Shown: piece by piece, positions 4,832 through 62,047 of the stretch
How the letters are laid out: each line of letters opens with the position of its first letter
How positions within the stretch are numbered: position 1 is the stretch's first letter
Source of the DNA: Hyposmocoma kahamanoa
Lineage: Eukaryota; Arthropoda; Insecta; Lepidoptera; Cosmopterigidae
Length of the DNA stretch: 64,000 bases
Direction of reading: 5' to 3'
Assembly: GCF_003589595.1 (NCBI RefSeq)
Contig: NW_020653993.1
Coordinates: forward strand, 6,479,528 to 6,543,527
Notes under the pieces: model-generated
Databases searched by the model: none
Seen by the model: only the letters and a program-made list of their open reading frames with translations
Told to the model about the DNA's origin: nothing
Program-made: the position numbers and the translations under genes

Positions 4832-5200
4832 TTACTCGAATTCTGCCGCGCACAAATAAATACATAATTTTACCGCCCTGCTTACCATTGGTTTGGGGCA
4901 TTGTCTTTGTTGACAGACACTGGTGTAGGCATATTTGCAGGATGCTTTACATTGGTTACTTTTAAGCTTTGCAGTATAAGTATCCCAACAAGTATAACCC
5001 CTTAACACAGCCTCTGCATCACCTTTTCCCCGGTTAAGGTAATTAGGATATGAATTGTAAAAAGTGTAGTCTTCGAATGCTCGAAAAGAACTACTGCTAG
5101 GCGAAACTGTAGCAGTAGGGCCTATTGGTTCATAAATTGCGACCTCAGAAATATTGTAAGGTGATATGTAACCGGTTTTTACCTCTTCAGCGGCTGGTTG
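4832..5200 (-). CDS. Gene A, main exon: compact twin-CX3C secreted protein
   Basis: This is the third and last exon of gene A, entered at TTACAG with phase 0 and ending in TAA. It encodes 122 residues. An N-terminal half rich in Ser, Tyr and acidic residues (QPAAEEVKTGYIS, TVSPSSSS) is followed by a seven-cysteine domain: C-W-D-x10-C-x3-C-x3-Y-x3-C-x4-C-P-x10-C-x3-C, including CKASC, VCQQRQCP and CIYLC. The predicted full protein is 169 residues: 15 (signal exon) plus 32 plus 122. The same spacing recurs exactly in gene E. There are no transmembrane segments after the signal peptide and no enzyme motif. I do not recognise the family. A secreted disulphide-stabilised peptide is the safest reading. 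A LINE fragment lies a few tens of bases upstream of the splice acceptor. Confidence 0.8.
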   Translation of the reverse strand, partial: QPAAEEVKTGYISPYNISEVAIYEPIGPTATVSPSSSSFRAFEDYTFYNSYPNYLNRGKGDAEAVLRGYTCWDTYTAKLKSNQCKASCKYAYTSVCQQRQCPKPMVSRAVKLCIYLCAAEFE

Positions 5201-5234
5201 CTGTAATGAAATATAGTGATATAATAATGATACC

Positions 5235-5991
5235 ACGCAATACGGGCAAGACGGGGCATATTCGCACGAACTGTATAGTAGGCATCATCGGCACTGTCAT
5301 CCGCATAGCAATGAATGTTACTAGTTACTAACATATCATTGAGATGCAAGATGAACAGGGTTGGTGATAGCACAGATCCTTGCGGAAAACCGGAGTTAAT
5401 GAGCATGGTGTCCGAGCATAATCCGTCCACAAAACTTTAATGCTCCTGTCAGACAAGAAGCTTTCGATCCAAGTGCATAGCCCTTCATGAAGTTCGTAAG
5501 ATGGTATCTTCGATAGAGGTACCTTGTGCCAGCTCCGATGAAAAGCTTTAGCGATATCTAAGCCCACGGCCATTGCTTCGCCCTTGCTCTCAACGGCAGC
5601 TGCCCATTGGTGCGTGAGATACACAAGAAGATCACCAGTACCACTACCACGGCGAAAGCCGTACTGGCGGTCGTTAATGAATAAGGTTAATCTAAGAGCT
5701 GGTCGTTTACCACGCGCTCCATCACCTCGGAGAGCAAAGAGGTTATCGCTATAGGCCGATAGTTGGACGGGTCTGTGTTGACATTATCTTTATGGTATGG
5801 TGTGAACACTGGCTATATTTACCTAAGTGGTACGAAAACGAGAACAGACGCTCTAAGACCGGAGCTAACTTGATAGCGCACTTCCTGAGCACAATAGCAG
5901 GTACGCCATGCCAAATTTGTGTTTCTGTTACATATTCTACAATAAACCCTGTAAATTCACTGCAATTTAACCTATTCACTGAATAGATCAT
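5235..5991 (-). pseudogene. Non-LTR retrotransposon reverse transcriptase fragment
   Basis: On the minus strand, broken frames give the RT thumb/palm series: GLDIAKAFHRSWHK (motif A region), GFPQGSVLSPTLF, LHLNDML and CYADDS (the YADD catalytic box). Upstream there is FIVEYVTETQIWHGVP. Several frameshifts are needed, so it is dead. It sits in the same orientation as gene A, inside its second intron, and stops about 40 bp before the splice acceptor of the main exon. Confidence 0.8.
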
Positions 5992-6236
5992 CTTATTTCA
6001 TAATTGGACTTTTCAACTTACATTGTGCTATTGTAATTTTTTTTGCTACACTTATTTGTACGACAACCAATTGCCGCAGAATTTTATTACACTTTGCATA
6101 AATACTTTGTTCTGATTGAATGACAACTCACGTCGAGTGGTAAGTTTTACAAAAACTTACTATAAATAATATGTTTGGATTAAAAAAAAAAATTATGATG
6201 TTATGTTAATTAATCCATATAAATCGTGCCACTCAC

Positions 6237-6332
6237 CGTATCGGGTTCATCATTTATGCGTACCACTTTCAAATAATTGCGGATATCTACATTTGGATCA
6301 TATTGATAAAGATGTCCTTTTGTGATATCCAG
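6237..6332 (-). CDS. Gene A, middle exon (32 codons)
   Basis: The exon is bounded by the acceptor TATATTTCCAG and the donor GTGAGT, is open in phase 0 and is exactly 96 nt. It encodes LDITKGHLYQYDPN followed by VDIRNYLKVVRINDEPDT. Joined to exon 1 (ending ICINS) it would start the mature protein just after the signal peptide. The DPN in its middle matches the last three residues of the 8-codon microexons of genes B, C and D. In those genes the following GTAAGT is a splice donor, whereas here the same place reads GTAGAT and the exon continues. No transcript evidence; predicted from splice sites and frame. Confidence 0.68.
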
Positions 6333-6481
6333 CTGGAAATATACATTTATTACCTATCATGCTTGTATAGTCGGTCATCTCATATATGTAGCAGTCGCCA
6401 GACGTGCTAATGTCAAATCCTTTTTCAACATTCAAACACGTCTTGGGGCAAGTAAAGAAAATACGGAACAGTGTAGAGATA

Positions 6482-6521
6482 CGCGTAGCAAATCGATATG
6501 TTTATATCGATTTGCTACGCG
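6482..6521. repeat. Perfect 18 bp hairpin
   Basis: CGCGTAGCAAATCGATAT is followed by the 4-base loop GTTT and then the exact reverse complement ATATCGATTTGCTACGCG. It lies in the first intron of gene A. It may be the centre of a small foldback element; no flanking duplication was identified. Confidence 0.75.
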
Positions 6522-7823: not shown

Positions 7824-8048
7824 TCTGCCTCTGTGGCCGAGCGGTTACCATGCCGAACTGCCACGCAGAGGTCCCAGGTTCGATTCGGTTCGGTCCCGGG
7901 CCGAGAGAAATATTTGTATGGCCTACATTTATTTCTCTCGTGAGTTTGGGTGTAATTTGTGGTTGTCTATGTGTGTGTCCATGGCACCCGCGACACAGGG
8001 TTTTCCTAGTGCGGGGCTATGTTGAGTGCGTGCGTTATTATTATTATT
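7824..8048 (+). mobile_element. tRNA-derived SINE, family A
   Basis: The head is tRNA-like, with an A box (TGGCCGAGCGG) and a B box (GGTTCGATTC). A conserved tRNA-unrelated body follows (ATTTCTCTCGTGAGTTTGGG, GACACAGGGTTTTCCTAGTG). It ends in a TTA microsatellite tail. It lies in the first intron of gene A. Other copies are near 18.8/20.9 (split), 28.8, 32.2 and 45.4 kb. Confidence 0.85.
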
Positions 8049-8572
8049 CTACAACTATACTTCGTTTCAATACCAATTTCAACAAAATGTAAACAAATAA
8101 GTCACTGTCACCCGACCATAGATGGTTTAGTGATGGTCAATTGTAATACATAACCTATATAAGCATATTTAAAATTTCCGAAATCCTAATTTTAAGTCCT
8201 CCTCCAAATCCTTACACTTAGATATTGAATAGATTTCAATTGCGATTGAAATATTCGATTTACTAACCGATTATAAAAAAATTTAATTGAATGAACCGAA
8301 CAGCACTATACAACCATAAACAAGTTATAGACGTATAGATAAAAAATAACCTCACTTTTGGACTACCATTTTTCAAATCTAATTTTACGATGCTATTCAA
8401 ATAAATATTGTTGGAAAAAGTGATTAGATATCAAGTCAAAATCTTCGAAATATACGTGAAAGTGTTACTTATTCGACTTATTGAGTGATTGCTTTAGAAT
8501 ATAAATTAGAAAAACTATTACCTATGTCAAAAGTGGAAATCACAAAACACAACACAAAGCAATCAAACTTAC

Positions 8573-10800: not shown

Positions 10801-13403
10801 TAATGCATAATTTTTAAAGGCAAGAAATGTTTAGGACAATATCTGTTGCAAGTTGATGTAAACCATTATACCAAGTGACCAGAAAGTAATTAAAAATTAA
10901 TTACTGCCTGTTGTAGTAGTCATGTATTTTTACTCCCAAGTGTAAATAAGTGTGTACTGTATATAATTTTACATACAACATTAATTGTTTGTTTCATTAC
11001 ATACAATTTCATTTGTGTAATTAACGGGTAACTCATATTGTAAAACGTTTTCGTGTCCATGTTTTATTGTTAATTTCACTTAATTAGTTTTTACCTCGGT
11101 TTTGTAACATAAGATACAATTAAATAAGTAAGTTATTACATAATGCTTAAGTCCACCAAATGAATGAAACAGGGCATACTGGTTATAAGTAGTATAATCA
11201 TTTCAGTAATAAATAATTACGTACATTTTTCATTAATATGATGGAAATAATTGTCTACTTTAGAGCAAAACGTCACTTTGTTAATTGTCATTGACAAGTA
11301 ATAAACAATAACAATAAATGAGCAAAATTGACATGCGCGGCAATCTGGGATCCTCATTAAGATAAATACCGTGTCATAACTGAAAGAACTCAACGAAAAT
11401 TCGCTCGACATTTGTGCAAAAGAATTTGTAGTTACTATCTGCTGCTCTTTTCTTCCTTATTTGTGTATGAATGGATGAAGACATAGGAATGGTCGGGGTC
11501 TTGACATCTTGTCACCGTACTCCATTACGCATTTCTCCTGCGGGATATAAACTGGACAACCACGGAACACTGAGCAATGTCGATCTGTTCGTGCCTAACA
11601 GCGAGTATATAACAAGAAATAGAGACGTAATGTCATTTAATTTGTTTGAAAACTATTCTGTCAAATCATCACTGTGACAACTGCGCAATTGACGGATGTC
11701 GTCAACTGTTTTAATTTAAATCGACCAGTTTAACTTGAGCGTTGCTATAATGGACGATAATTGCAAAATTACATATTTAATATTTAATTGCCGATGAAAT
11801 GTAATTCCGTTTGTTTTGTAATAGATGTTTTGGTAATGTTAGAGATATTATCTATATTACAATAAATACAGACAATGTACACACAGGTCAGTTGTTGGTG
11901 TTGTACTATTTCAGTGATATAAGGCCTATTTGCCTGATGAGTTGCCAGAGCTGGGTGGCTCTTATTTGGTCTCTATTTCTGGTTTGAATTTTTTTTTTTA
12001 ATAATTCGTCCTTAATTAAGTAATTTAGGTGTAGTATCATTAGCGAATGCTTCATGTGAACTACACAGCTAGCTGTTAAATAAACATTAAATTATAAACA
12101 TTTCAAATTCACTAAAAATGGCTTTGGAGTGTGAGTTTGAATTTTATGGATGAGTGTGTGAAAAGAAATTATTTATTAGTGTAGTATTTTAAAAATTCAA
12201 ACAAAAAAATACTCAGCTTCAAACTATGTACATCAGTTGAGAGACATAATTGTTGAAAATTATGAATTTTAAATGCAGTAACGTAATTTCAACTTTAACG
12301 GTTCTTTTATCTTGAAATGACTACGACATAGAGCTGAGCTGCCATAGTAATTATTACTCGTGTTAATGCCTTGTGATTTTACAAGTTTGATTTGTGTCTT
12401 GTGAAAATTCATTGCTTTGAGACGAGTCCCCATATATTATATTATCTATGCCCTTAAATTAACTTTTGTTTGTATGAATACCTCGTGCAAGAGAAAAGGG
12501 CCTACGAACAAGCATTGACATTTAAATACATTTATTTCAGTTCTTGACACTTAAGATTTATATTCGACTGCATGCCTCTTGCGATAAACGGCGGCTCAGT
12601 GTCCAGCGTGAAGTGTACTCTTGACTGTACATTACCTTACATTTTCACCTCGCATCAACTCTGCAGTGTACGCGATAAAAAAAACACGAACATTTTCAGA
12701 TGTCGAAACCGCTAGAGTCAGGCAAACGAAACTTGAAACTGAGAGCTTTGTAAAACTTTTAAGGTGGCAACACTAAAGTCTGTTGGCAAAACTGTCAGTA
12801 CGCCATTAACGCTTAAATTCTCTTTGCCATTAACGAGTGCAATATTTTCGAGTATTTTTATTGTCTCTTTATCAATCATGAATAAAACGATTAAAAGTAA
12901 CGTGCGAAAGTTACTTCGTACTATGATTACTAAGTATAAAGAAAAACAACTGGAGCGGGAATGTGTTTGCAAGCAGAAACAAACATAATAATATTTACAT
13001 ATGATTTTGGACTTTTTAGGTTAGTATGATAAGTTATTTTGATACTTTGTTGGTTTTGTAATTTGGATAACGGTGCACATAAAGATTTTACAGGTTTTAA
13101 TACCCTTGTAATATTTTCTTTTAGTGCAAAACATGGAACATGTGCCAAGAGTTTCTAAAAATAGTACAAACTGTGGAAAAACTTTAGGAGCTAGGACCAC
13201 ACATGTTATTAAAGACCCAAAATGAATAAGGAAGAAATTGCATCAATTACTGGTATGCAAACTGATCACACCCTTTTAAAACTGTAGTTGGTTGACTTTG
13301 AGAATATTTCGCTCACTAAGTTTTTTAAATATATTTAATGTTTAATTAAATTTTTATTGAATTGATATTCAATTATTTTTTGTGAAATTACTCCACTAGT
13401 TTG
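10801..13403. other. Gene-free AT-rich stretch
   Basis: Only short ORFs with biased composition are present. None shows a domain, signal peptide plus donor, or similarity to the cluster genes. No clear repeat structure was seen. Confidence 0.4.
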
Positions 13404-13622
13404 TTATAATTATTAATACAAAGATCGAACACTCGGAAAAAACACTCAGAAAAAATTCCTTCGATCCGGTCGGATTCGAACCGACGTCTTCTTGCATACC
13501 GTGGCAGACGCTATACCAACTAAGCCACGGAACGAACCAACGGACCTCGCGAATTTTTCTATGTGCTTGCGTCGTGTCTTTGTACTTGGTCTTTCAACGA
13601 CTTTTTAGTCATAGCGCCATCA
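13404..13622 (-). mobile_element. tRNA-derived SINE, family B
   Basis: On the minus strand the head reads GTGGCTTAGTTGG (A box) and GGTTCGAATCCGACC (B box), then TCGAAGGAATTTTTTC and an AT-rich tail ending in TATAATTATTAATAC-type sequence. The 5' flank contains GGCGCTATGAC. Related copies lie at 36.35-36.55, 42.88-43.27 and 48.24-48.44 kb. Confidence 0.75.
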
Positions 13623-17245: not shown

Positions 17246-18694
17246 TTAATTATTACTATTTTCTATCAATCCACCACCTCCTCCAATGTTATTAACATTG
17301 TTAACAGCATCCTCACCAACATTATTAATATTGTTTACTGGTTTACCAGTACCACCTTGATTGTTGTTAACAATAACGCCAGGGCACGGTGGAAACGGAC
17401 ATGGGGGAGGTGGTAGGGGAGGTGGTGGGTAAGGTGGTGGGCATGGTGGATGTGGACATGGGGGTGGTGGTAGTGGGCATGGTGGATATGGACATGGGTT
17501 AGGTGGTGGGTAAGGTGGGNNNNNNNNNNNNNNNNNNNNNNNNNNNNNNNNNNNNNNNNNNNNNNNNNNNNNNNNNNNNNNNNNNNNNNNNNNNNNNNNN
17601 NNNNNNNNNNNNNNNNNNNNNNNNNNNNNNNNNNNNNNNNNNNNNNNNNNNNNNNNNNNNNNNNNNNNNNNNNNNNNNNNNNNNNNNNNNNNNNNNNNNN
17701 NNNNNNNNNNNNNNNNNNNNNNNNNNNNNNNNNNNNNNNNNNNNNNNNNNNNNNNNNNNNNNNNNNNNNNNNNNNNNNNNNNNNNNNNNNNNNNNNNNNN
17801 NNNNNNNNNNNNNNNNNNNNNNNNNNNNNNNNNNNNNNNNNNNNNNNNNNNNNNNNNNNNNNNNNNNNNNNNNNNNNNNNNNNNNNNNNNNNNNNNNNNN
17901 NNNNNNNNNNNNNNNNNNNNNNNNNNNNNNNNNNNNNNNNNNNNNNNNNNNNNNNNNNNNNNNNNNNNNNNNNNNNNNNNNNNNNNNNNNNNNNNNNNNN
18001 NNNNNNNNNNNNNNNNNNNNNNNNNNNNNNNNNNNNNNNNNNNNNNNNNNNNNNNNNNNNNNNNNNNNNNNNNNNNNNNNNNNNNNNNNNNNNNNNNNNN
18101 NNNNNNNNNNNNNNNNNNNNNNNNNNNNNNNNNNNNNNNNNNNNNNNNNNNNNNNNNNNNNNNNNNNNNNNNNNNNNNNNNNNNNNNNNNNNNNNNNNNN
18201 NNNNNNNNNNNNNNNNNNNNNNNNNNNNNNNNNNNNNNNNNNNNNNNNNNNNNNNNNNNNNNNNNNNNNNNNNNNNNNNNNNNNNNNNNNNNNNNNNNNN
18301 NNNNNNNNNNNNNNNNNNNNNNNNNNNNNNNNNNNNNNNNNNNNNNNNNNNNNNNNNNNNNNNNNNNNNNNNNNNNNNNNNNNNNNNNNNNNNNNNNNNN
18401 NNNNNNNNNNNNNNNNNNNNNNNNNNNNNNNNNNNNNNNNNNNNNNNNNNNNNNNNNNNNNNNNNNNNNNNNNNNNNNNNNNNNNNNNNNNNNNNNNTAA
18501 GGCGGTTCGCATGGTGTATGTGGACATGGGGGAGGTGGTGGTGGGCATGGTGGATATGGGCATGGTGGTGGGCACGGTGGAAACGGACATAGATCTGGTA
18601 GGCATTCCGGACATTGATATGGTGGGCAATGCTGACAGTACCCTAATTGTGACTTCTTGCTTTTATGTTTGAGTTTGTTATTTGATAATGTACA
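17246..18694 (-). CDS. Gene B, main exon: Pro/Cys-repeat secreted protein
   Basis: The exon is entered at GATTTCAG in phase 0 and ends in TAA; 978 bases (17520-18497) are unresolved N. The visible start reads CTLSNNKLKHKSKKSQ, then YCQHCPPYQCPEC, then repeats of the type CPFPPCPPPCPYPPCPPP. After the gap the same repeat continues (NPCPYPPCPLPPPPC). The tail is Asn/Gly-rich, with VNNNQGG, PVNNINNVGEDAVNN and IGGGGGLIENSNN. It lacks the twin CX3C domain in the visible part, but its first residues (C-T-L-x-x-x-K-L-K) match gene D's main exon, and it shares signal exon, microexon and promoter with C and D. The repeat could form a cross-linked extracellular structural protein (inference). True length is unknown because the gap falls inside the repeat. 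Confidence 0.75.
   Translation of the reverse strand, partial: CTLSNNKLKHKSKKSQLGYCQHCPPYQCPECLPDLCPFPPCPPPCPYPPCPPPPPPCPHTPCEPPXXXXXXXXXXXXXXXXXXXXXXXXXXXXXXXXXXXXXXXXXXXXXXXXXXXXXXXXXXXXXXXXXXXXXXXXXXXXXXXXXXXXXXXXXXXXXXXXXXXXXXXXXXXXXXXXXXXXXXXXXXXXXXXXXXXXXXXXXXXXXXXXXXXXXXXXXXXXXXXXXXXXXXXXXXXXXXXXXXXXXXXXXXXXXXXXXXXXXXXXXXXXXXXXXXXXXXXXXXXXXXXXXXXXXXXXXXXXXXXXXXXXXXXXXXXXXXXXXXXXXXXXXXXXXXXXXXXXXXXXXXXXXXXXXXXXXXXXXXXXXXXXXXXXXXXXXXXXXXXXXXXXXXXPPYPPPNPCPYPPCPLPPPPCPHPPCPPPYPPPPLPPPPCPFPPCPGVIVNNNQGGTGKPVNNINNVGEDAVNNVNNIGGGGGLIENSNN
17520..18497. other. Assembly gap (978 N)
   Basis: The gap lies wholly inside the Pro/Cys-coding repeat of gene B, so it was probably caused by collapse of that repeat. 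The N count gives an apparent frame, but real length and frame are unknown. Confidence 0.99.
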
Positions 18695-18890: not shown

Positions 18891-20892
18891 GGGTGTGGTT
18901 CGTAATATATAACAAGAAATGACATATTTTTAGTCGATATAACACTCAGCAGATATAATTAATTTATGGTATACGAACATTTGATATATTCTTGCATGGT
19001 ATAAAGGTCACTGGGTATAATAAACGATTGATATAACAACTTTCAATCTAATATACCGATGGCATAATGTTCATTTTACATAAACACTTCAAATGTAACA
19101 TTCACTGAGTATTTTTTATTATAAATATAATTCTAGTGGTGTTTAGGTGCAATGGTGAATGAAACGAATTTGTTTGCATTTCCTAGTTGATTCTACCTCC
19201 TCCTGTGGGTTTAGGTTAGATTAGTATATGCAATTAAATATTCTGCTTAAAGTTTTAATATTTTATACACAAAAAACACTTAAAGCTAAATACAAAAACA
19301 ATTACATTTTGCTATTGTACATTTAATGAAAAAAAATGAAATACTTATGAACATAATATTCGCTAATAGGCGCTTCTACTATTCGTAAAACGAAATATTG
19401 TGTTATATAAGAATAAGAATATGTTTATTGGCATCACAAACACACAGAAAAACAAAATACTAAAGTATTTTAATTTTAAGTATCATATTTTCATTTTTAA
19501 GACAAGAACGTGATACTTATGCTAAATGAACATTAAGTGTGTGTTAAACATTAACAAAAACATGCATTGTTAATGTGATGCCATGCCTGCAAACATTGTG
19601 AGTCATTACAGGTGGTCCCACACTAGGCTAAGCCTGTCCTGTCACGACCTTTTTACGGCTTCAATTTACTCGTTACGTTACCTACGATTATATTATACAA
19701 ATAACAACAACTTATAGAGGAGGTAGAATCAATTTATATATATATATATATATATGTATATTAAATCTAACATAAGAATAGGAATTATTATAGATTGTAA
19801 TTAAGTAAAATAGCATGAATTTAAAATAATTGTGATCAACATATTAATATAAAAATAATTATTTATATTTAATAATAATAATTACTAACTACTAAGGTGC
19901 TTCACGGGAATGAAAATGTAATTTTGTTCACAATTGGAAACTCACACCAGTAGCCACCCCAACAGGCAGTTACTCCAATTTGACAATTCCTGTCAAAACA
20001 ATGAGTGGCAACAACTAAAACCCCAACCAACCCACTCACCTAACGACTCTTAGGAAGCTTTCTGTATGTTCATAGTTCCAAGACTGCATATGTGACCCAA
20101 TAATCCTCTTCGCTTTGTGAATAGACCTCTCTTTAATGTCGCATATTTTTGCAATTCTGTTGTAAATGAAAGGAAATGCAAAGGTCCCAAAGCGTTGGGC
20201 AAATATTTTTGCTACCGGTCGCATTTTCACTTTAAATACGCGATTCCTAAGTAAAGAAGGATATTCCGGAGAGGTAAGAACTTTCGCGTGCATATTAAGG
20301 GCAGCTTTTAGAATATACAGTTTCCGCACACTTAGGACCTTCACGTCTTCAAATAACGAGATTGTGGGGTAACGATAGGGCTTGCGCAACATCACCTTTA
20401 GCACACTTCTTTGGGCTCTCTCCAGGTTGATCATATAGCAGGATGCAGAGCCTCCCCACACCAAGATGCAATAGCTTAAGATGGATTGACACAGTGCAAG
20501 ATAAATTGCTGTTAGCAGGCGCAAATTTGCAGCTTCTCTGAGAAGCTTCATGGTGTGTATCAACTAGCGCACCCTGCCACACGTTACTTCAATGTGAGCT
20601 GCAAAGGTCAGCCTCTCATCCACTGTCGCGCCCAAGTAGCGTACGGTAGCTGATATTATTTAATACATTACTCCGGTAGTACTTATATAATTTGTTCATT
20701 ATGTCACCTAATCGTTATATCTAATGTTTGTTATACAGAAGGTTTATTATACACATTGAAATTATTCCTTTTGTTGTTATACCTTTTGTTGATTTTATAC
20801 AGTGAGTGATTATATCCTTCGAAATTATATCAAATGTTGTTATACAAAGTGAAAATAGGTTACATGTTGTTATATCTTTCATTACACACCCC
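18891..20892. mobile_element. Non-autonomous DNA transposon with 16 bp sub-terminal repeats
   Basis: The left end is GGGTGTGGTTCGTAATATAT. The right end, reverse-complemented, is GGGGTGTGTAATGAAAGATA, so the tips are similar and inverted. Next to each tip is a tandem array with a period of about 16 bp built on G-R-TATAA (18904-19066, and inverted at 20683-20880). Inside are a LINE fragment (20036-20640) and a (TA)n run near 19735-19756. I found no transposase. The superfamily is undetermined. Confidence 0.6.
20036..20640 (-). pseudogene. LINE reverse transcriptase C-terminal fragment
   Basis: The minus strand reads VRYLGATVDERLTFAAHI (frame 1), then after a shift YLALCQSILSYCILVWGGSA, LERAQRSVLKVM, LSVRKLYILKAAL and SWNYEHTESFLR. 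This is the region C-terminal to the RT palm in insect non-LTR elements. The same family appears on plus at 51.6 kb. It is 5'-truncated. Confidence 0.8.
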
Positions 20893-22080: not shown

Positions 22081-22104
22081 ATTTGGATCAAATTTTGACG
22101 ACTT
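22081..22104 (-). CDS. Gene B microexon (24 nt)
   Basis: The acceptor is GTTTTGTTTTAG and the donor GTAAGTTATT. The eight codons K-S-S-K-F-D-P-N are phase 0 on both sides. The same microexon, at the same place between signal exon and main exon, occurs in C and D. Confidence 0.75.
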
Positions 22105-22612: not shown

Positions 22613-22672
22613 CAACTCAATAAAAATGGGTAATAAACCCACTAAAATTAAATAAAACAAAAGCATGTTCAT
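22613..22672 (-). CDS. Gene B, exon 1: signal peptide
   Basis: The ATG is at 22672. Twenty codons, MNMLLFYLILVGLLPIFIEL, end at a GTAAGTGG donor in phase 0. The run LVGLLPIF is shared with gene C and nearly with D. It is a typical secretion signal whose cleavage site would fall at the exon boundary. Confidence 0.78.
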
Positions 22673-22700: not shown

Positions 22701-22806
22701 AAGAACTCATTACAAAATATTCACGGTATTTATTCGAACACTTATGTCCAAGATGTTGTCTACAATATGCAACATGGTTGATAATTACCTAATTAAAAAT
22801 AACAAC
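22701..22806 (-). promoter_or_regulatory. Conserved upstream block of gene B
   Basis: Read toward the ATG the block contains TTTTAATTAGGTAATTA, TGTTGCATATTGTA, TTCGAATAAATAC and ATTTTGTAATGAGTTC in that order. The same motifs with similar spacing precede genes C and D, while the surrounding DNA differs more. AT-rich homeodomain-type sites are suggested by TAATTAGGnAATTA (inference). Confidence 0.65.
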
Positions 22807-25540: not shown

Positions 25541-26683
25541 GCTATTCATGTGTATGTTCCCCCACCGCCCCGCCTCCTCTCCTTCACCACCACTTCCACT
25601 TCAACTGCTTCCAACGCCTCCACCACCTCCCCAACCCCCACCGCCTCCCCAACTTCCACCATAGCCTCTAACGAACCCGCTTCCCACGCCGCCGTTACCG
25701 CCTCCCCAACTTTCACTACCTCCCCAACTTCTACCGCCACCACTGTCTTTAACAAACCCACCCCCTACGCTTTCTACAAGGCCTCCACTGCCGCCACTGA
25801 CTTTACCGCCTTCTGCGCCATTTTCTCTGCCTCCACCACCCAATGGCGTGCCCCAACCCCAACCTGCACCGCCTCTCCATATTCCACCACCTCCACCGCC
25901 TCCCCAACTTCCACCACCTCCCCAACTTCTACCGCTACCACTGTCTTTAACAAACCCACCCCCTGCGCCTTCTACAAGGCCTCCACTGCCGCCACTAAGG
26001 TTAATGCCTTCTGCGCCTTTTTCTCCGCCTCCACCACCCAACGCCACGCCCCAACCCCCACCGGCTTTCCAACTTTCACCGCCTCCCCAACCTCCAGCAC
26101 CTCCACCGCCTCTCCAAATTCCGTCACTTCCACCGCCTCTCCAACTTGCACCGCTATCACCGCCATCTCCTTGTTTACCGACTTCTACACCTCTTTCACC
26201 ACCTCCGTAGGTTCCCCAATTTCCATCGCCTCTCCAACTCCCAACACCTCCCCAACTGCCACCGCCTCCCTAAAAAATATTATCATTATTATTTTCACCG
26301 CCTTCATTGCTTTCACCGCTACTGCCGCATTCAAATTCTTTACCGCTTTTACCGCCTCCTCCACAACTACCTCTTTATGCGCATATTAGATTAAGGAGAC
26401 TCTCTAGAAATCTGCACACATATGGGAGCAGCTCAGTCAAATGACGTCTGTTTGACAACTAATGTTACAAGTCTAGACAGTTGAAAAATGTGCAGCAGTA
26501 TTTCATGCGTTATTTTGCGTAGCTTGCTGTGCAAGTTTTTACGCGTTTTCTAACACCATTGCAAGCGTCATCGTGTGGGAAATGCACTTCAATGATATTG
26601 TCGTTAGGGTAACTTTTTTGGTGCAACTTTTAGAAATTTTAAATGCTTGACTTTTTTCAGTATATGTTTGCGTGAAACATATA
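25540..26683 (-). pseudogene. Gene C, main exon: broken Cys domain with Gly-rich tail
   Basis: The position and structure equal the main exon of gene D. Read from the acceptor in phase 0, the frame stops after eight codons. In a second frame the D-like domain is visible, PHDDACNGVRKRVKTC then TASYAK, but two conserved cysteines have become Arg (TGC to CGC) and a TAA replaces a codon just before the second of them. Another shift follows near CNISCQTD. Downstream the DNA stays open in one frame as a Gly/Trp-rich tail (GGGGSWGG, GGGFVKDSGSGRSWGG) ending in TGA at 25601, with a 198 bp unit present twice. The antisense strand is also open for 279 codons, which is a by-product of the GGN repeat. 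Most likely a recently lost paralogue of D. Confidence 0.75.
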
Positions 26684-27186
26684 CTGAAATCATTATCATT
26701 GTATGAAATTAGTATTCTCATTTTCTTAGTGAATCAAGCAAGTTTATGATTAATTTTCTTGATAAACCTCATCATAGCGCTTGTGTAATATCCAGGTAAT
26801 ACTTGATTATTATTATTAAACAACAATAAAAATTACGTTGATATTATTATAAAGTTTTGAACCTATTTTGCAATAAATGAAAAAGTAAAATCAGTGTCTG
26901 AATTTTGTGTTGTCTTCAATTTTCTACTAATGCCAATTACTGGAAAATTTAAATCCACAAACAATATTTTATAATTTAGACCAATTTCATTAAATCAATT
27001 ATTTTTTGTGATGGTGTGCATTGAAATGTTTCTATCTTGCCTGAGTGAGCGGAGAGCAAAAAAGTTTGGGAACCTTTGATTTAGACTCGAATGAAAAAAA
27101 CCGTTTGAGTGTAGCTGCACAAGTTATATAATGTATAATTAAGCAGATCTTAAACAACACGTAGTAGCGAATCACGAACAACTTAC

Positions 27187-27210
27187 ATTTGGATCAAATT
27201 TTTGCACCTT
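27187..27210 (-). CDS. Gene C microexon (24 nt)
   Basis: Acceptor TGTTTTGTTTTAG, donor GTAAGTTGTT, phase 0, codons K-V-Q-K-F-D-P-N. It is intact although the gene's main exon is disabled, which fits recent inactivation. Confidence 0.7.
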
Positions 27211-30474: not shown

Positions 30475-30537
30475 CAAATTCTCAATAAAAATGGGTAATA
30501 AACCCACCAAAATTGAAGAAAATAAAAATATGTTCAT
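30475..30537 (-). CDS. Gene C, exon 1: signal peptide
   Basis: The ATG is at 30537. Twenty-one codons begin MNIFLFSSILVGLLPIFIE and end at donor GTAAGTAA in phase 0. It is intact and very close to exon 1 of gene B. Since the main exon is broken, this exon may still be transcribed but would yield only a short peptide. Confidence 0.72.
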
Positions 30538-30562: not shown

Positions 30563-30664
30563 ACGAACTCATTACAAAATACCTACAGTATTTATTCGAA
30601 AATTTTTATGTTATTTACAACGTGCAACATCGATATTAATTGCCTAATTAAAGGCAACAACACC
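30563..30664 (-). promoter_or_regulatory. Conserved upstream block of gene C
   Basis: Toward the ATG: CTTTAATTAGGCAATTAAT, ATGTTGCACGTTGTA, TTCGAATAAATACTGT, TATTTTGTAATGAGTTC. Order and spacing match the blocks of B and D. Confidence 0.65.
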
Positions 30665-38231: not shown

Positions 38232-39026
38232 TCATCCATTATTATTATTATTGTTATTATTATTAATGTTATAATTCCAATTACAGTTGTTGTTGTTGTT
38301 GTTATTGTTATTGTTGTTGTTGTTGTTGTTGTTATTATTATTATTATTGTTATTATTATTAATATTAGGACCGCAAGGAAAACAAAATGGTGGGCACGGT
38401 GGAAACGGATTTGGGCACGGTGGAAACGGACATGGGCATGGTGGACATGGGCACGGTGGAAACGGACATGGGCACGGTGGGCATGGAGGAGGCGGAGGAG
38501 GCGGAGGAGGCGGCGGAGGTGGCGGAGGTGGCGGAGGAGGCGGCGGAGGTGGCGGAGGTGGCGGAGGTGGAGGAGGCGGAGGAGGCGGAGGAGGCGGAGG
38601 AGGCGGAGGAGGTGGTGGTGGCGGTGGTGGCGGTGGTGGCACTGGTGGAGGACACGGCGGTACTGGACAAGGTGGAGGACACGGTGGCCACGGACAAGGT
38701 GGAGGACACGGTGGCCACGGACAAGGCGGAGGGCACGGCGGATTAGGGCAAGGACAAGGACATGGATCTGGACATGGCTGCGGACAGAATTCGATTTCAC
38801 ATCTAGTGACACAAACCTCTTTAAAATGACACTTGAAAGATCTACAGTTGTATTCCATGCATAGTATTGCGTAGACCGCGGTACAAGATCTTATGCATTT
38901 TTTAGCAACATTGCAAACATCATGGGGTCCAAAATCTTCGCAACCGCAATCACAGTCCTGGAAGCTGTGACTTGCTTGCAACTTTTTGTTTTTAAAGCTT
39001 TTGAGTTGTTTGGTGGCTAACGTACA
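38232..39026 (-). CDS. Gene D, main exon: twin-CX3C domain with Pro/Cys and poly-Asn tails
   Basis: Entered at GATTTCAG in phase 0; 264 codons and a TGA stop. It begins CTLATKQLKSFKNKK, followed by the cysteine domain: CDCGCEDFGPHDVC, KKCIRSCTAVYAILC, MEYNCRSFKCHFKEVC and VTRC. Then come Cys/Pro repeats (CPQPCPDPCPCPCP, PPCPWPPCPPPCP), a run of about 65 almost pure prolines, a second Cys/Pro block (CPCPFPPCP) and an Asn homopolymer tail broken by CNWNYN. With the signal exon and one microexon the protein is 293 residues. Both homopolymers lie on triplet microsatellites, so length polymorphism is expected. Composition suggests an extended, disulphide-cross-linkable extracellular protein (inference). 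The plus-strand ORFs over the same DNA are shadows of the repeat. Confidence 0.85.
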   Translation of the reverse strand, partial: CTLATKQLKSFKNKKLQASHSFQDCDCGCEDFGPHDVCNVAKKCIRSCTAVYAILCMEYNCRSFKCHFKEVCVTRCEIEFCPQPCPDPCPCPCPNPPCPPPCPWPPCPPPCPWPPCPPPCPVPPCPPPVPPPPPPPPPPPPPPPPPPPPPPPPPPPPPPPPPPPPPPPPPPPPPPPPPPPPCPPCPCPFPPCPCPPCPCPFPPCPNPFPPCPPFCFPCGPNINNNNNNNNNNNNNNNNNNNNNNNNNCNWNYNINNNNNNNNNG

Positions 39027-40315: not shown

Positions 40316-40339
40316 ATTCGGATCAAATTTTAACCGCTT
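40316..40339 (-). CDS. Gene D microexon 2 (24 nt)
   Basis: Acceptor TTTTGTTTTAG, donor GTAAGTTATT, phase 0, codons K-R-L-K-F-D-P-N. It is nearly identical in plan to the microexons of B and C. Confidence 0.75.
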
Positions 40340-41957: not shown

Positions 41958-41981
41958 ATTTGAAGCAACTTTGGGCCGCCT
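41958..41981 (-). CDS. Gene D microexon 1 (24 nt, diverged)
   Basis: Acceptor TTTGTTTTAG, donor GTAAGTTCAA, phase 0, codons R-R-P-K-V-A-S-N. It has the same length, phase and flanks as the K-x-x-K-F-D-P-N microexon but a changed peptide. Gene D therefore has two in series; they may be alternatives, both included, or this one may be decaying. Confidence 0.6.
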
Positions 41982-43703: not shown

Positions 43704-43766
43704 CAACGTTTCACTAAAAATGGGTAATAAACACACAAAAATAAAATAAAATAAATGTATGTTCAT
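43704..43766 (-). CDS. Gene D, exon 1: signal peptide
   Basis: The ATG is at 43766. Twenty-one codons begin MNIHLFYFIFVCLLPIFSE and end at GTAAGATT in phase 0. It is homologous to exon 1 of B and C (shared MN, LLPIF). The intron to the main exon is about 4.7 kb including the two microexons. Confidence 0.75.
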
Positions 43767-43790: not shown

Positions 43791-43900
43791 TAAGAATTCG
43801 TAATATAAAATATCCACAGCATTTATTCAAACACTTTATATTAAGATGGTGTTTACAATATGCAACATGGAGAATTAATTGCCTAATTAAAAACAACAAC
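43791..43900 (-). promoter_or_regulatory. Conserved upstream block of gene D
   Basis: Toward the ATG: TTTTTAATTAGGCAATTAAT, CATGTTGCATATTGTAAACA, TTTGAATAAATGCTG, GATATTTTATATTACG. It matches the B and C blocks in order and spacing. Confidence 0.65.
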
Positions 43901-43920: not shown

Positions 43921-44599
43921 AAATAGCGACCAAAAAATAACTTCGTTTAGATCTCTTGTTTTCTGTAAGTTGTCATACCAAGCGACATAAATGTGGGTGT
44001 ACATAAATAACAATAATAATCTTCATTTATCTTCAAGCATGGTTTCTTAAATAATAGTTGCTGGAGCCTCCTTTTAAGTGTAACCAGGAGGCGCCGTTCT
44101 TTCTTAGGTACACGTTTCAAAAGAAACTTAATTGGCTAACTTAACCAACCAAAAAATAATTACTAAGTACTTAATTAAATATATAATAGTAAATAATAAT
44201 ACAAAATTACACACTAAACTCACTTCCTTTTTGTATTAGCTTATAATCAGTTATTTCGTATAATCGTTATCAAACATGGTCCTCAGTTATTTTTACTAAG
44301 GTAAACTGGTCGATTTGTAGTGAAATAATTGACGACACCCGTCAATTGTTTCGAATTCGGACACGCCAATCGCACCGCAGTTGTCACAGTAATGATTTGG
44401 CAGAATGGCATGACATTTCGTCTCTATTGCTGGTTATATACTCGATGGCTACATCCCTGTCCATAATAGTTCATGCCTGTCAATGCGGAGCAGTGCACTG
44501 TCGGATTCGGATGTGCTCCACTACACAGTAAGAATTATAAAAATTCGCGACACGCGCGGCAATAGCCGCTGCGCGTAATTGATTATGGGTTCCCAGCAA
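43921..44599. other. Divergent intergenic region, part 1
   Basis: Between head-to-head genes D and E. AT-rich, with no recognised element up to about 44.3 kb; after that the sequence becomes TE-like. Confidence 0.4.
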
Positions 44600-48022: not shown

Positions 48023-48058
48023 ATGGAATTAATTATTTATATTTTGTCAACATTTTTG
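48023..48058 (+). CDS. Gene E, exon 1: short signal exon
   Basis: Twelve codons, MELIIYILSTFL, end at GTAAGT in phase 0. Hydrophobic but short; the signal would need residues from the next exon. This is the only hydrophobic ATG exon with a good donor that I found between 43.9 and 50.6 kb on plus. Confidence 0.55.
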
Positions 48059-50190: not shown

Positions 50191-50268
50191 GCAGGTGAAG
50201 CGGCGGGCCATATCAACCATAATACAATAAATACAGTAGAGTCACTGTATGGCGGAACTCATCCTCGG
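50191..50268 (+). CDS. Candidate middle exon of gene E
   Basis: A strong acceptor (CTTCTTATTATTTTTGCAG) opens 26 codons in phase 0, AGEAAGHINHNTINTVESLY then GGTHPR, before a weak donor GTATTT. It would fill the slot that the middle exon occupies in A and F. However, the frame stays open well past 50268 in sequence that looks repeat-derived, so this could be a chance acceptor. Confidence 0.25.
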
Positions 50269-50684: not shown

Positions 50685-51020
50685 TATTTTCAAAGAATAA
50701 TTGATGACAACACCAATTCTACTGACATAATACCGATTAACGGACCATTGAACGAAGTTCTACAAGGTGATGATGAGTATACTTTAGGCGGAGAAGTTGG
50801 TGAAGAATTTACGAATCCTTTAGACAGTATGTCTCAAGCCAGTATGCTCAGAAATTCATGCTGGGATCCGAACACAGGTTTAGGCTACGCCAGGAAGTGC
50901 AAGCAAGCTTGTAGAACCACTTATTCAACTGTTTGCTCACAAAGAAGATGCCCCAATGGTGTCTATAATAGAGCTTATGCATTTTGTAGGATAACTTGCA
51001 GATTAAAGTTTTGTGTATAA
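50685..51020 (+). CDS. Gene E, main exon: compact twin-CX3C secreted protein
   Basis: Entered at TATTTTTACAG in phase 0; 111 codons and a TAA stop. An acidic N-terminal half (IIDDNTNSTDIIP, GEVGEEFTNPLDS) precedes the cysteine domain: C-W-D-x10-C-x3-C-x3-Y-x3-C-x4-C-P-x10-C-x3-C, visible as CKQAC, TVCSQRRCP and CRITC, with one extra Cys at the C-terminus (KFCV). All seven spacings equal those of gene A, 45 kb away on the other strand, while the rest has diverged. No low-complexity tail. Using exon 1 directly, the protein is 123 residues. The N-terminal exon structure is less certain than in the other members. Confidence 0.8.
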   Translation, partial: YFQRIIDDNTNSTDIIPINGPLNEVLQGDDEYTLGGEVGEEFTNPLDSMSQASMLRNSCWDPNTGLGYARKCKQACRTTYSTVCSQRRCPNGVYNRAYAFCRITCRLKFCV

Positions 51021-51599
51021 AGGATTTGGTGTTTTGATGCGTTTTTGTTTTTTATTACCCGAAACACATCCAACGTCCCCACTCTAATACCAGCTATGGT
51101 ACTAGCGTTTAAACAATGTGGTCAATACAGCTTTCGTCAAATGTGGCGATCCTCTGAGCATTGAGCCAGTTCAGGTGGGGTAGAACCTTTGGTGCGAAAG
51201 ATTACAATCTACCTTTGTCCCGCTTTCTGAGAGTCTCCCACCTGGACACGAAATGCCATGACCGATCTGGAAGTCGTTAAAAAGGCTTCGCACACAGGTT
51301 GGTCAGAGTAAGACCAATTTGTTCAGGTGGGGAATTTCGGATGGTTCTCACCTAGATGATTCAAACGCCTTAATTCTCTATGATGATTCCTGGGAATTCC
51401 GTGTTAGACTTTGCGCAAGTGGGTTTCAATTCCGTTTCCAAATGGCTTTCTCACAACCTCGTCACCCTCAACATGGGAAAAACTATGTATCTCACGTTTT
51501 CACTCACAAGTCGTGGTTAATCATCCTCCTCTGCATTCTCTATAACTGCACATTCGTGTCCATCTTTTTCACATGATTCCTGCTCCTGTCCGTCTTTAG
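51021..51599. other. 3' flank of gene E, unassigned
   Basis: Moderate GC with short ORFs; it may be the 5' part of the LINE that follows, since composition is continuous with it, but no motif was recognised. Confidence 0.35.
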
Positions 51600-52290
51600 T
51601 CCGTACACACTGTGTGAAGTATCTGGGTGTCCAGCTGGATAACACACTTTCCTTTCGCTATCATATTGATGGTCTGACCCTGAGATTACGCAAATTGATT
51701 TTCATTTTTAAACGTCTTCGCCACGTAGCAGATGTGAAAGTTTTAAGAATTGTGTATTTAGCACTGTGCCAGTCCCTCACATCCTATTGCATCTCTGTTT
51801 GGGGTGGCTCCGCCAATCGGCATCTACTTAAGCTGGAATGCACTCAACGTGCGATACTCAAGGTGGGTTGGTCAGATACCCGACCTATGACCTTTATAAA
51901 ACCTGTGAGGTCCTCTCATTACGACAGCTTTTTATTCTTCAAATAGCTTTGATCACGCATACTCATATCCTATCCTAACATATACATATTAAGATTAATC
52001 ACTTTCTAAGTTTAAAACTTGCATCAAAAGTATTTTAATTCAAAAGTCATATTACAAAATTGAAGAGCATTTGTTAGATCTTTCCGTATGAAAGACGACA
52101 TGAGTCTTGATTCCATACAATTATGATTCAAAGTGTATTTAAGTTTATTTGAAAGGAGCAATCCTTAATTTCTTGCTCGTTCTTCTCAGGGAGGTCAGCG
52201 TAGTGAACGAGCATCAGCTTAAAAAATGACGTTTTCAAGTGTAAAAATTTTACCTATGGAATAAATAATTGTTTGACTTTGACTTGAGTT
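51600..52290 (+). pseudogene. LINE 3' end with RT fragment and TTTGACTT tail
   Basis: KYLGVQLDNTLSFRYHI, then YLALCQSLTSYCISVWGGSA and RAILKV on plus, followed by the 3' untranslated part shared with 47.2-47.5 kb and ending TTTGACTTTGACTTG. It links that tail repeat to this RT family. Related to the RT at 20.0 kb. Confidence 0.8.
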
Positions 52291-54620: not shown

Positions 54621-55135
54621 TGCACGCCGCCCACGTGGTCTGCTATTTCAGAAAAGTCGTTTGTGGTATGGCGCTGGGAGTGTTAATGTGCTTCTATCTG
54701 CACGTTGCTGTTGCGTAAGGTTGACGTAATTACATTTATAGATTTAATTAAGGAACGTTTGTCATTCATTCATAACCTAATTCATTTATGGGCCTTTTAC
54801 AGAACTCACAATATTTAAAAAAAATATATAATAAATATATTCCTTTCATGGCGTAGGTGCCGTATAAAATGATTAGGCATTCTATAAAATGTCCCAATTT
54901 TCGGTCACTTGGTCATTTTGTCAGTATATTTAACTTTGACCGTTTTGGTTTCATACTCAGCGTAAATCGTTTAATATAATAATATCAGTCTTGTTATTTT
55001 TAATGAGGCAATTAATCCATCATGTTATATCCATGTTTAACTTAGTTTTCCAGATTTGCAGGAAAGCGTGTTAAATAATTTTACACGTTTAATTAATTTG
55101 AATTTATTAATCATTTTTATTCTGCGTTTAATAAA

Positions 55136-55201
55136 ATGAGTTTATTTGTTGGTTTTAATTTCTTTTTAATGAGTACTATAGCAATTGTTATGACGACATC
55201 G
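55136..55201 (+). CDS. Gene F, exon 1: signal peptide
   Basis: Twenty-two codons beginning MSLFVGFNFFLMSTIAIV and ending MTTS at GTAAGTTTTT in phase 0. A clear signal peptide, with the same plan as the other members. The nearby family C repeat starts immediately after the donor. Confidence 0.72.
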
Positions 55202-55204
55202 GTA

Positions 55205-56190
55205 AGTTTTTTTATAATGCGAAGTGACGGGACGAACGAGTTGTGCGTCTGGTCAAGCAACCCTCCTGTCCATAGCAGCTCCAGTGCCAGTCAAAGCTTT
55301 AATAAAAAAAAATCTGAGGTACCTACATTGTCATCGTGACACAAAAAGGCGGTCTCTCACCGGGAGCATTCGCCTATAATGTAACAAACAAGATTCGATT
55401 TTGATCATTACGTTACAATACTACCTTACTGACTGACGAGCATTCGCCTGTAATGTAACAATTCAAGATTCGATTTTGAGCATTACGTTATGATGTTGCC
55501 TCACTCACTGACGAGCATTCGCCTGTAATGCAACATACAAGATTCGACTTTGAGCAATACGTTACAATACTACCTTACTGACTGACGAACATTCGCCTGT
55601 AATGTAACAATTCAAGATTCGATTTTGAGCATTACGTTACAATATTGCCTCACTTACTCACTAACATTCGCCTGTAGACGAATCAGTTGTTTTTACAATG
55701 TCAGACGAAACTGTCGTGGTTCTGAGCGCGGCAATATTAATTCAACTATGTTATTTACGTCAAAAAAAGCAAAAGAAGCGATATAGGCCTCACAACCTAT
55801 TTCATGCTCGGCGTGATATAGGCGGATTGGATATATTAGAAAGAATCAACCGACGCATAAGTAAACAAAAATTATTTGTAAGAATGTCTTCATCGGATAT
55901 TGAGCATTTAATAAATCTAATTGGACCATATGTTAAAAACAAGATATCAACTATAGAAAACTCACTCACTTGTAAATGTTACAAGTTGTATCATTACAGG
56001 TTGCGGACTGCAACGCTCGGTTCTCCTCACTCACTGATGTAATGCTCGAATCTGAACTGTTACATTACAAACAAATGCTCCTGGTGAGGGACCGCCTTAA
56101 GTTGACAAATCCCGTGCGCCTGTAATTTCAACAGCACCCTCATTACCCTCCAAAATAGGAACGCAGTAATGCGCACATTACGACCAAATC
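55205..56190 (-). repeat. Family C repeat split by a Harbinger-like element
   Basis: The left piece 55205-55340 (GACGGGACGAACGAGTTGTG) and right piece 56100-56190 (GTTGACAAATCCCGTGCGCC) form one reverse family C copy. The insertion falls in the position that reads GAGACATAA-GTTGACAAG in intact copies. Confidence 0.7.
55345..56099 (+). mobile_element. PIF/Harbinger-like element with 75 bp tandem repeats
   Basis: The terminal repeats are AAGGCGGTCTCTCACCGGGA and, reverse-complemented from the right, AAGGCGGTCCCTCACCAGGA. 55360-55680 holds about four copies of a 72-77 bp unit (GAGCATTCGCCTGTAATG... ATTACGTTACAA). After it, the ORF at 55698-56042 encodes a HARBI1-like N-terminus: FHARRDIGGLDILERINRR, FVRMSSSDIEHLINLIGPYV. 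The nuclease domain is deleted, so it is non-autonomous. Confidence 0.75.
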
Positions 56191-56257: not shown

Positions 56258-56356
56258 TACTTGGAGCCAACCATGGATTCTATATCTATGGAGCCAACAG
56301 ACCTCCTTGACTTGCAAGATATGAATCAACTTAGAGTAAAAACGCAGGATTTGGAC
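56258..56356 (+). CDS. Gene F, middle exon (33 codons)
   Basis: Acceptor ACTTTTTTTCCCAG and donor GTAAGT, exactly 99 nt, phase 0. It encodes an acidic segment: YLEPTMDSISMEPTDLLDLQ then DMNQLRVKTQDLD. It occupies the same gene position as the 32-codon exon of A and the 8-codon microexons of B-D. Excellent splice signals; no transcript evidence. Confidence 0.68.
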
Positions 56357-58430: not shown

Positions 58431-58525
58431 TTTTGCGATTTAAAGCTATGATTGGCACTGCAACTGTTATGGACAGGCATAGAGCTTACCATAAGGCGCA
58501 AGACTTGTTCGTCCCATATTAAAAA

Positions 58526-59930: not shown

Positions 59931-59934
59931 AAGC

Positions 59935-60500
59935 TGCAGATCCTTGAACACCGCCGTAAAGTCGCTTGCTTATCGGTATTACACAGGATATCACGGAGAG
60001 TGTGCGAAAGAATTGCATGAATTAAATCCGCCTTCCCCTTTCGATGGAAGTTTCGAAGGACCAGACGTAGACTGGGGTTACATCCCTATATTGTGGATAT
60101 TCCAAGGATTCACACGAAGTGCTTCGCTTTCATATTTATATGGTGAAGCTATGAAGTGGAATTCTCTGCCTGCAGACTTGTTTTCTGGTCGGTATAACTT
60201 AGACCTTTTCAAGACAAGATTGAATAGGTATTATTTAGGTGCGCATGCTCCATCGTCGACTTCATCATAACTTTCCATCAGGTGAGATGGAGGTCAAATG
60301 CTCACTTAGTCTTTAATAAAAAAAATCATATTAAATATATGGGAGCGTTTCACGTTAAAATTCGACACACACGTCTGGTACTCACTTGGTTTTAGGGTCT
60401 ACTGAAAATCAGCGTCACAGCCTTTTCTCGGGGCGGTGACAATAGCTGCGTGGGATTCTTTTACATACGCCACAGCAGCACACATGACATTCACTCTAAT
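59935..60500 (+). pseudogene. LINE 3' end, uninterrupted copy, plus dispersed repeat
   Basis: KWNSLPADLFSGRYNLDLFK then TRLNRYYLGAHAPSSTSS, the same LINE end as at 39.4-40.1 kb but without the MITE. 60355-60500 is the dispersed TCAGCGTCACAGCC repeat also present at 24.2 and 63.3 kb. Confidence 0.75.
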
Positions 60501-61501
60501 TGTTTTAATGTAAAATATTTAATGTTTGCTTTGTTGTTGATTATGATTTTATTTTTATTTCATGTTTTTGTTTTGTTATTTTATTTCAATATTTTGTCAT
60601 AATTTTGCTTCATCTTTCCTTTATCTTTCTTACTGGGTATTTTTATATTGTGGCGTAGTAATAAATGATTTCTAAATTTTGAATATTTCTAATTAATAAG
60701 TTATTGATGTCATTTTAATCATTAGGAGACGTAATTGCGATATCAGTTTAAAGGTTTTTGATATCTATTATATTTACGCCTGGACACACTTAACCATTAC
60801 AACTTGTATTATCACACTATTGTATGTCAATCATTCAAGTTATCACTCCTAGCAGCAAATTTGTGCTGCTAGGAGTTTTAATTGGGGACCAGTTGTTATA
60901 TATATGACGCTAGACTCGAGCATTAACTCTGAGTCTGGGTCTGAGTCTCTGTTTTCATGAATAGAGTTTTGTGAATTGGAGTCGACTCCAAAAATGTGGA
61001 CTCCCGGACTCGAGTTTTTTACAACACTAGAGTAAGTACTTGGGAGGCAAATGCTCAGTCGGCTTTTCCTCGGTTAGCAGCCTTGCGAGGCTACTCGCTA
61101 AGTAAGCGACTATCGGCTATGCCTAATTATAAAAATACTATGATACATATTACTTAAATAAACAGGAATCGCATCCGCTACTAGGTGCTTAGTGGAAAAT
61201 GCAAGCAACGAAAGGGTTTAACACCACAAACCGCCACGCTCTGGTCCAAAGCGGATTGAGTACTTCACAAGTTTCCTAGGAGCTGTGAACCTTTTCAAGG
61301 TGCAGGTTTCATCACGGTGTTTTCCCACATTGTTACCGAGTGACATCGCTACAAACTTTAACAAACGTTCACAAGGACTCCAACCGCCGCCCTCTCATTT
61401 GAGAAACAACCATTCTCCCATTGAGCTACTACCGCTAGTACAATTATTTGAACTTGACATACATATGCCATTATATGACTTACTTATTAACAATTTTTCA
61501 G
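60501..61501. other. End of gene F intron 2
   Basis: AT-rich; a small inverted repeat CACTCCTAGCAGCAAATT / TTGTGCTGCTAGGAGTTT lies at 60845-60880, and repeats of GAGTCTGGGTCTGAGTCT occur near 60935. The acceptor CAATTTTTCAG closes the intron at 61501. Confidence 0.5.
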
Positions 61502-62047
61502 AGTCCAGACGACGACAAAATATCTCTTAAAAGTGCAGGTGGTGCAAATGGTGCAGCTGGTTCAAGTAGAGTGTATTATCCTAACAGCGAAGAAGACTGC
61601 GCCGCTTGTGGCTGCTACTACCCTTATTATCCCCATGATGTGTGTCGAACCATAGAAAAGTGTACGAAAGCCTGCGAAGCAGTTTACGACATATTGTGCA
61701 TAGATCCTCAAATTCAGCAAGCTATTAGGTGTTGGTTCTCTAGAACATGTCAAACCAATTGTTATACCACATTTGCGTATACAACTAAGGCCAAAAGTCT
61801 CACCGCAAAAGCTAAAAAACTTGCCTTTAACAATAACAACAACAACAACAATAATAATGGTTGGGGTGGTAATAACAATAATAATAACAACAATAACAAT
61901 GGTGGGGGTGGCAATAACAATAATAATAACAATAATAACAATGGTTGGGGTGGTAATAACAACAACAATAACAACAATAATAATGGTGGTGGTGGTGGTG
62001 GTGGTGGCGGTGGTGGTGTTGTGTGCTTTCTATTTATTTGTGGGTGA
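61502..62047 (+). CDS. Gene F, main exon: twin-CX3C domain with Asn/Gly block tail
   Basis: Entered at phase 0; 181 codons and a TGA stop. It begins SPDDDKISLKSAGGANGAAG, then the cysteine domain: CAACGCYYPYYPHDVC, EKCTKACEAVYDILC, AIRCWFSRTC and QTNC. PHDVC and AVYxILC are shared with gene D. A basic linker (TKAKSLTAKAKKLAF) leads to four Asn blocks of about ten residues alternating with GWGG or GGGG, a final Gly run of about ten, and VVCFLFICG. With exons 1 and 2 the protein is 236 residues. The blocks are written in AAC/AAT and GGT triplets. An AATAAA signal lies at 62113-62118. Probable extracellular low-complexity protein; function unknown. Confidence 0.85.
   Translation, partial: SPDDDKISLKSAGGANGAAGSSRVYYPNSEEDCAACGCYYPYYPHDVCRTIEKCTKACEAVYDILCIDPQIQQAIRCWFSRTCQTNCYTTFAYTTKAKSLTAKAKKLAFNNNNNNNNNNGWGGNNNNNNNNNNGGGGNNNNNNNNNNGWGGNNNNNNNNNNGGGGGGGGGGGVVCFLFICG

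Follow-up and report, generated by a model that had tools for sequence, protein, structure and literature searches.

Six genes (A to F) in a 64,000-nucleotide window of the genome of the moth Hyposmocoma kahamanoa (contig NW_020653993.1, positions 6,479,528 to 6,543,527) belong to a clustered gene family characterized by a signal-peptide exon and, in A, D, E and F, a domain with two CX3C motifs set within a longer pattern of conserved cysteines. The cluster reaches well beyond the window, and many of its genes share a short promoter element. The domain is predicted to fold as a helical hairpin and its proteins to be secreted. Taking the evidence together, we see a roughly even chance that this is a lineage-restricted H. 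kahamanoa family of disulfide-braced secreted structural proteins, which would most plausibly serve as silk coating or case cement made in the labial (silk) glands.

A six-frame scan of the window with the strict motif C-x3-C-x3-Y-x3-C, 15-16 residues, C-x3-C gave four matches, at A, D, E and F, and the motif occurred 0 times in shuffled versions of the window (second-order Markov, n=60). The third cysteine is separated from the second CX3C motif by 16 residues in A, E and F and by 15 in D, and the two CX3C motifs lie 24 residues apart in A, E and F and 23 in D, just as a sequence-only reading of this DNA had described. The two subtypes it had distinguished, A/E with a C-W-D start and D/F, are likewise both seen. 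Its description is correct for the motif but falls short of the domain, for which an alignment of 13 domains yields a fuller signature of seven cysteines, C-x5-12-C-x3-C-x7-C-x4-C-x10-11-C-x3-C. All 13 aligned domains contain C-x3-C-x7-C followed by the later C-x3-C, and all have an extra cysteine 5-12 residues ahead of the first CX3C. The cysteine 4 residues past C-x3-C-x7-C is found in 11 of the 13; it lies 5 residues past in 6676042 (members outside the window are designated by contig position), and the F domain has in its place a cysteine 10 residues past. At least seven cysteines are present in each of the 13 domain segments, which span 47-63 residues and are all embedded in larger proteins.

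The family is without a name in the libraries that we searched, in keeping with the earlier reading. Pfam scans of members gave nothing above the curated cut-off, an NCBIfam scan of four members likewise, and PDB sequence searches of the scanned members returned weak, unrelated matches or none; searches of open-access papers brought up no earlier description of the family. Metallothionein (Metallothio_Cad) was considered and rejected, as E scores 15.6 and 15.1 against a Pfam cut-off of 27 bits and A, D and F do not match. ShK, DUF3868, API5, NCBIfam and other matches were set aside as well, all being weak or below curated cut-offs.

The AlphaFold2 model of the E domain is a clear hairpin with helices at 9-32 and 36-54 (mean predicted local distance difference test score, pLDDT, 84.3), and that of F has two helices (mean pLDDT 60, core blocks 77-81). 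Foldseek searches with the two models gave nothing below 0.001. Structural comparison of the F model (VIA-align) retrieved common helical arrangements, with the alpha-hairpinins 6o3q and 9q1l among tied rows, and no alpha-hairpinin was present among the 24 chains compared with the E model. The analogy to alpha-hairpinins drawn in the sequence-only reading holds as far as the predicted helical hairpin of the E model.

A profile built from the A, D, E and F proteins matched six proteins, of which four are NCBI entries for H. kahamanoa; across all protein searches 14 different proteins were recovered, H. kahamanoa contributing six. P0004, P0002 and P0011 share 94-95% identity with A, E and 6398747, respectively, P0007 is 55% identical to A, and four relatives of the member H1 are 52-62% identical to it. 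No named species besides H. kahamanoa appeared in these searches, which need shared five-residue words, so that distant relatives in other moths may escape them. The names that NCBI gives to such proteins, DDB_G0286379-like and probable kinase clkA, probably reflect only their Asn runs and mislead.

All six genes of the window begin with a hydrophobic signal exon ending in phase 0 ahead of a GT donor, which bears out the expectation that a signal-peptide exon precedes the domain. Gene A, on the minus strand, comprises exon 1 (8617-8573, signal peptide MFLNAFFVFIICINS, gtaagt donor), exon 2 (6332-6237) and exon 3 (5200-4832), the last encoding a tail-less C-W-D-type Cys domain with the strict motif; joined, the three are identical to NCBI protein P0001 (LOC113233673) over 169/169 residues. 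Gene F, on the plus strand, has a promoter element TAATGAGGCAATTA (55001-55014), exon 1 (55136-55201, signal peptide MSLFVGFNFFLMSTIAIVMTTS), exon 2 (56258-56356) and exon 3 (61502-62047), which carries the strict motif, an Asn/Gly-rich tail and the C terminus VVCFLFICG. This model contains the whole of NCBI protein P0003, which begins within exon 2 and runs across the join to exon 3. Among the exon joins proposed earlier, those of A agree residue for residue with an NCBI protein, the F exon 2-3 join is supported by one, and the least certain concerns exon 2 of gene E. That gene, also on the plus strand, consists of exon 1 (48023-48058, signal peptide MELIIYILSTFL), a proposed exon 2 with a weak gtattt donor (50191-50268) and exon 3 (50685-51020), a tail-less C-W-D-type Cys domain with the strict motif.

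Genes B, C and D lie on the minus strand and have in common a 24-base mini-exon encoding KxxKFDPN. D has a promoter element TAATTAGGCAATTA (43876-43889), exon 1 (43704-43766, signal peptide MNIHLFYFIFVCLLPIFSETL), the mini-exon KRLKFDPN (40316-40339) and a last exon (38232-39026) with the strict motif followed by a Pro/Cys-rich and Asn-rich tail. B has a promoter element with one mismatch to TAATNAGGCAATTA (22782-22795), exon 1 (22613-22672, signal peptide MNMLLFYLILVGLLPIFIEL), the mini-exon KSSKFDPN (22081-22104) and a last exon (17246-18694) with a Pro/Cys-rich and Asn-rich tail; 978 N occupy 17520-18497, and the six-frame motif scan revealed no CX3C domain in the sequenced part. Pseudogene C has the same promoter element as D, TAATTAGGCAATTA (30637-30650), a signal exon MNIFLFSSILVGLLPIFIENL (30475-30537), the mini-exon KVQKFDPN (27187-27210) and, at 25600-26684, a domain remnant interrupted by stops and then a Gly-rich tail remnant, with 70% identity to D over 475 bp. 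Since signal exon, mini-exon and promoter all agree, B and C are indeed family members, as had been claimed, but the earlier title of six genes sharing the scaffold holds for A, D, E and F only. Two further features of these genes were seen. A diverged second copy of the mini-exon (RRPKVASN, 41958-41981, minus strand), with intact splice signals, lies within the first intron of D, and a conserved stretch that may be a vestige of a former exon precedes the last exon in D (39276-39197), C (26934-26856) and B (21067-21019), all on the minus strand.

The cluster is not confined to six genes, as first thought, but extends on both sides of the window. A pattern scan (263 kb), a hidden Markov model (HMM) scan (303 kb) and a search with H1 together gave 20 domain open reading frames (ORFs) on the window's contig, over ~295 kb (6381400-6676042), and one more on another contig, C1218. 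This count is a lower bound, because 39,645 of 263,000 bases are N; runs of N lie at 6543528-6548527 and 6590873-6613320 beside the one in gene B. Fifteen of the 20 have HMM E values <1e-15, eight of these having served to build the HMM, and the others are m6548, 6398747, 6669051, 6676042 and 6381948. When profiles were built leaving one domain out, 12/12 tested domains were recovered with E values of 5.5e-12 to 0.001 (12 of 13, 6461832 being left out). In whole-genome searches the D domain had 16 matches. Thirteen of these, one interrupted by a stop, lie on the window's contig (6437051 to 6635960), and the other three are weak and lie off it (E 0.147, 0.275 and 0.28, two with stops). All 13 matches of the F domain, nine of them F-type, were on that contig. 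The relative at C1218:17886496 (locus L041, C1218:17885900-17887300) is intact, with a longer C-terminal part, and a fragment lies 16 kb off. By position, a candidate signal exon was found upstream of 14/20 domain ORFs, through a mechanical scan and by reading below promoter elements; m6548 (preceded by a gap), 6589219, 6552441, 6398747, 6669051 and 6381948 have none assigned. An 1820-residue open frame at 6548573 was rejected as a giant protein, being mostly assembly gap.

Eleven exact copies of the promoter element TAATNAGGCAATTA occur in the 303 kb, against 0.1 expected. Allowing up to four mismatches, the extended element has 16 matches, of which 15 are located 94-146 bp ahead of a signal-exon ATG, although element and exon are not independent at 6561456, 6583345 and 6614794, where the exon was recognized only once the element was known; the sixteenth match, at 6625931, has four mismatches and no assigned signal exon. 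Exact copies number 68 in the whole genome, where the reversed control pattern has 51. Eleven of the 68 lie inside a 144-kb part of the cluster, and the element is private to the cluster in that no exact copy is found elsewhere on the 11.8-Mb contig. For the window, the element scan upheld the proposed common promoter at B, C, D and F and found A and E to be without it. A ~165-bp block common to the A and E regions (11599-11736, minus; 44298-44447, plus) was first taken as a promoter and then dropped as a dispersed repeat, since six further strong copies in both orientations occur in the 303 kb.

The element contains CAATTA, which is present in 11/15 element promoters against a matched background of 0.29. 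AATTAAT occurs in 10/15 (7 with the element masked; background 0.21), TGTTTA in 10/15 (background 0.32) and POU-M1 words in 5/15 (background 0.19). Sites of these kinds are listed for Bombyx silk genes in PMC5831788: CAATTA as the core of SGF-2 sites in fibH, fibL and fhx, TGTTTA as a site for Fkh in fibH, and AATTAAT-like MIC sites together with Fkh sites in ser1.

The low-complexity tails that follow the domain differ in composition. That of D is 56% Pro, 22% Asn and 13% Cys over 184 residues, that of 6461832 is 57% Gly over 358 residues, that of F is 44% Asn and 24% Gly, and that of 6650649 is 27% Asn over 655 residues; a tail is absent from A, E and 6426985. The C terminus C[FL]LF[IV]C[GW] is found in four of the nine F-type genes. 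The F-type domain itself is under purifying selection: the ratio of nonsynonymous to synonymous substitution rates (dN/dS) is 0.04-0.40 in 36/36 pairs of the nine F-type domains, indicating that the domain is maintained, though few changes could be counted (68 codons and 2-16 synonymous differences per pair).

Silk coating or case cement would account most economically for the signal exons, the tandem amplification, the common element, the cysteine-braced core and the interchangeable tails in an animal with a sand-and-silk case; according to PMC11373647, the larva uses silk to weave its case from sand and pebbles. The genes traced upstream consist of a signal exon in phase 0, a brief linker exon and a final exon for the predicted seven-cysteine helical hairpin, to which many genes add an exchangeable low-complexity tail rich in Pro/Cys, Gly or Asn/Gly. 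Many of the genes may be switched on jointly through their common homeodomain-type element. The hairpin would fold in the secretory pathway and be locked by disulfides, spare cysteines of the hairpin, tail or C-terminal cap could form cross-links between proteins after secretion, and the tails would supply bulk, hydration and perhaps adhesion. Lepidopteran sericins (Ser1-Ser4, P150) offer a parallel, being likewise secreted, clustered and duplication-prone, and their large exons contain repeats. PMC9684489 reports a sericin of Yponomeuta that is rich in Asn (28.9%), and PMC9745057 reports clustered sericin genes with recent duplication for Galleria. Sericins differ, however, in that most are rich in Ser and Ser1 carries CXCX at its C terminus, whereas here Asn, Gly or Pro/Cys tails follow a seven-cysteine hairpin; the parallel is drawn on the features named rather than on sequence relationship.

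Several observations weigh against a silk role. The tails are not rich in Ser, which ranks among the four commonest residues in 3/12 tails longer than 5 residues (7-12%), and none of the 18 ORFs checked, of 20, has CXC within its last 40 residues; CPCP is present in D, but further inside the tail. The element is lacking at 6/18 signal exons, namely A, E and four flanking ones, and A, E and 6426985 may have another role, given that none has a tail and that A and E are without the element. With the element masked, CAATTA is left in 2/15 promoters, and a looser Fkh pattern, present in 13/15 against a background of 0.81, is not enriched. Moreover, the 15 promoters are not independent trials, as the genes are paralogs, and homeodomain and Fkh proteins are active in many tissues.

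Moth chorion proteins, whose gene promoters bear GATA and C/EBP sites, are clustered and secreted, with a conserved core between low-complexity arms, and the genes described here could by analogy be co-regulated genes for eggshell, egg-glue or other structural secretions of the reproductive tract. The cluster, the short signal exon, the conserved core with repetitive arms and the Gly- and Cys-rich tails of some members would fit this reading, which we nonetheless consider unlikely: the Hyposmocoma members scanned have no chorion match in Pfam, and no two divergent exons of the 21 signal exons lie within 3.9 kb of each other, whereas chorion gene pairs share a short promoter. We attach a similarly low probability to a place in the cuticle, the peritrophic matrix or some other extracellular layer of the larva, with which the signal exons and the cysteine-bearing Gly-, Asn- or Pro-rich sequence are consistent but for which the Pfam scans gave no chitin-binding or other cuticle domain.

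Equally improbable, in our estimate, is a secreted hairpin-type defence peptide or protease inhibitor, of which the tail-less A, E and H1 types would be the archetype and to which tails would have been added later. Plant alpha-hairpinins (vicilin-buried peptides) do carry two CX3C motifs on two antiparallel helices, as predicted here, yet their structures were tied with those of unrelated helical pairs, long low-complexity tails are ill-suited to a free peptide, and the F-type hairpins are under constraint. Alpha-hairpinins are also short four-cysteine peptides, according to PMC11591084, and the domains described here have at least seven cysteines and belong to larger, animal proteins; the likeness is likely convergent. 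The small Tim proteins, which have twin CX3C motifs on a helical hairpin, lack a signal peptide and reside in the mitochondrial intermembrane space, and they differ from the present family, with its signal exons on all six window genes and three more conserved cysteines. A reading of most members as recent duplicates with little function, which transposons and simple-repeat slippage carried along, seems very improbable. C, 6477048 and 6629403 are interrupted or fragmentary, no domain could be assigned to the signal exons 6472592, 6583345 and 6587660, and simple-repeat tails and, as judged by eye, transposon-like ORFs are found all around, but dN/dS is below 0.5 in every pair and both the cysteines and the promoter element are conserved.

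More speculatively, and with less confidence than we place in the silk-coating reading itself, the family might form part of the case-making toolkit of the Hawaiian Hyposmocoma radiation. The seven-cysteine hairpin would then be a cross-linking and assembly module to which tails were attached repeatedly, mostly under one private silk-gland switch, with copy number and tail swapping tuning the case cement. If the proteins do belong to silk, their genes would be candidates for those underlying an island radiation of case-building caterpillars, and they would present a new natural design for an underwater adhesive, a disulfide-braced hairpin with interchangeable tails. Even if they do not, they constitute an animal domain family that has no name in the libraries searched and whose promoter element is confined to a single cluster, a circumstance that makes the co-regulation of tandem genes directly testable.

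Other sequences lie between and around these genes. Adjoining Ser/His/Asn-rich ORFs at 6403372, 6407894 and 6424531 on the minus strand of the window's contig (356, 288 and 589 residues) have a common KIxIKR...YF/YY stretch, and two of the three have CWFVVCVGLYVND near their end, which recalls the C-terminal motif of four F-type genes; a Pfam scan of two of them gave no match. Among five neighbouring ORFs in the Pfam scan, four had no match and one a match below the cut-off. Transposon-like ORFs lie between or inside the window genes at 5328-5783 and 20036-20563 (minus) and at 51521-51946 and 55665-56042 (plus), the first with a reverse transcriptase match below the cut-off and the other three judged by eye. 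At 13460-13535 (minus) there is a tRNA-like sequence with an irregular anticodon, perhaps a tRNA-derived repeat, and at 2910-3323 (plus) a partial exon of a trypsin-like serine protease (Pfam Trypsin, E 7.4e-8).

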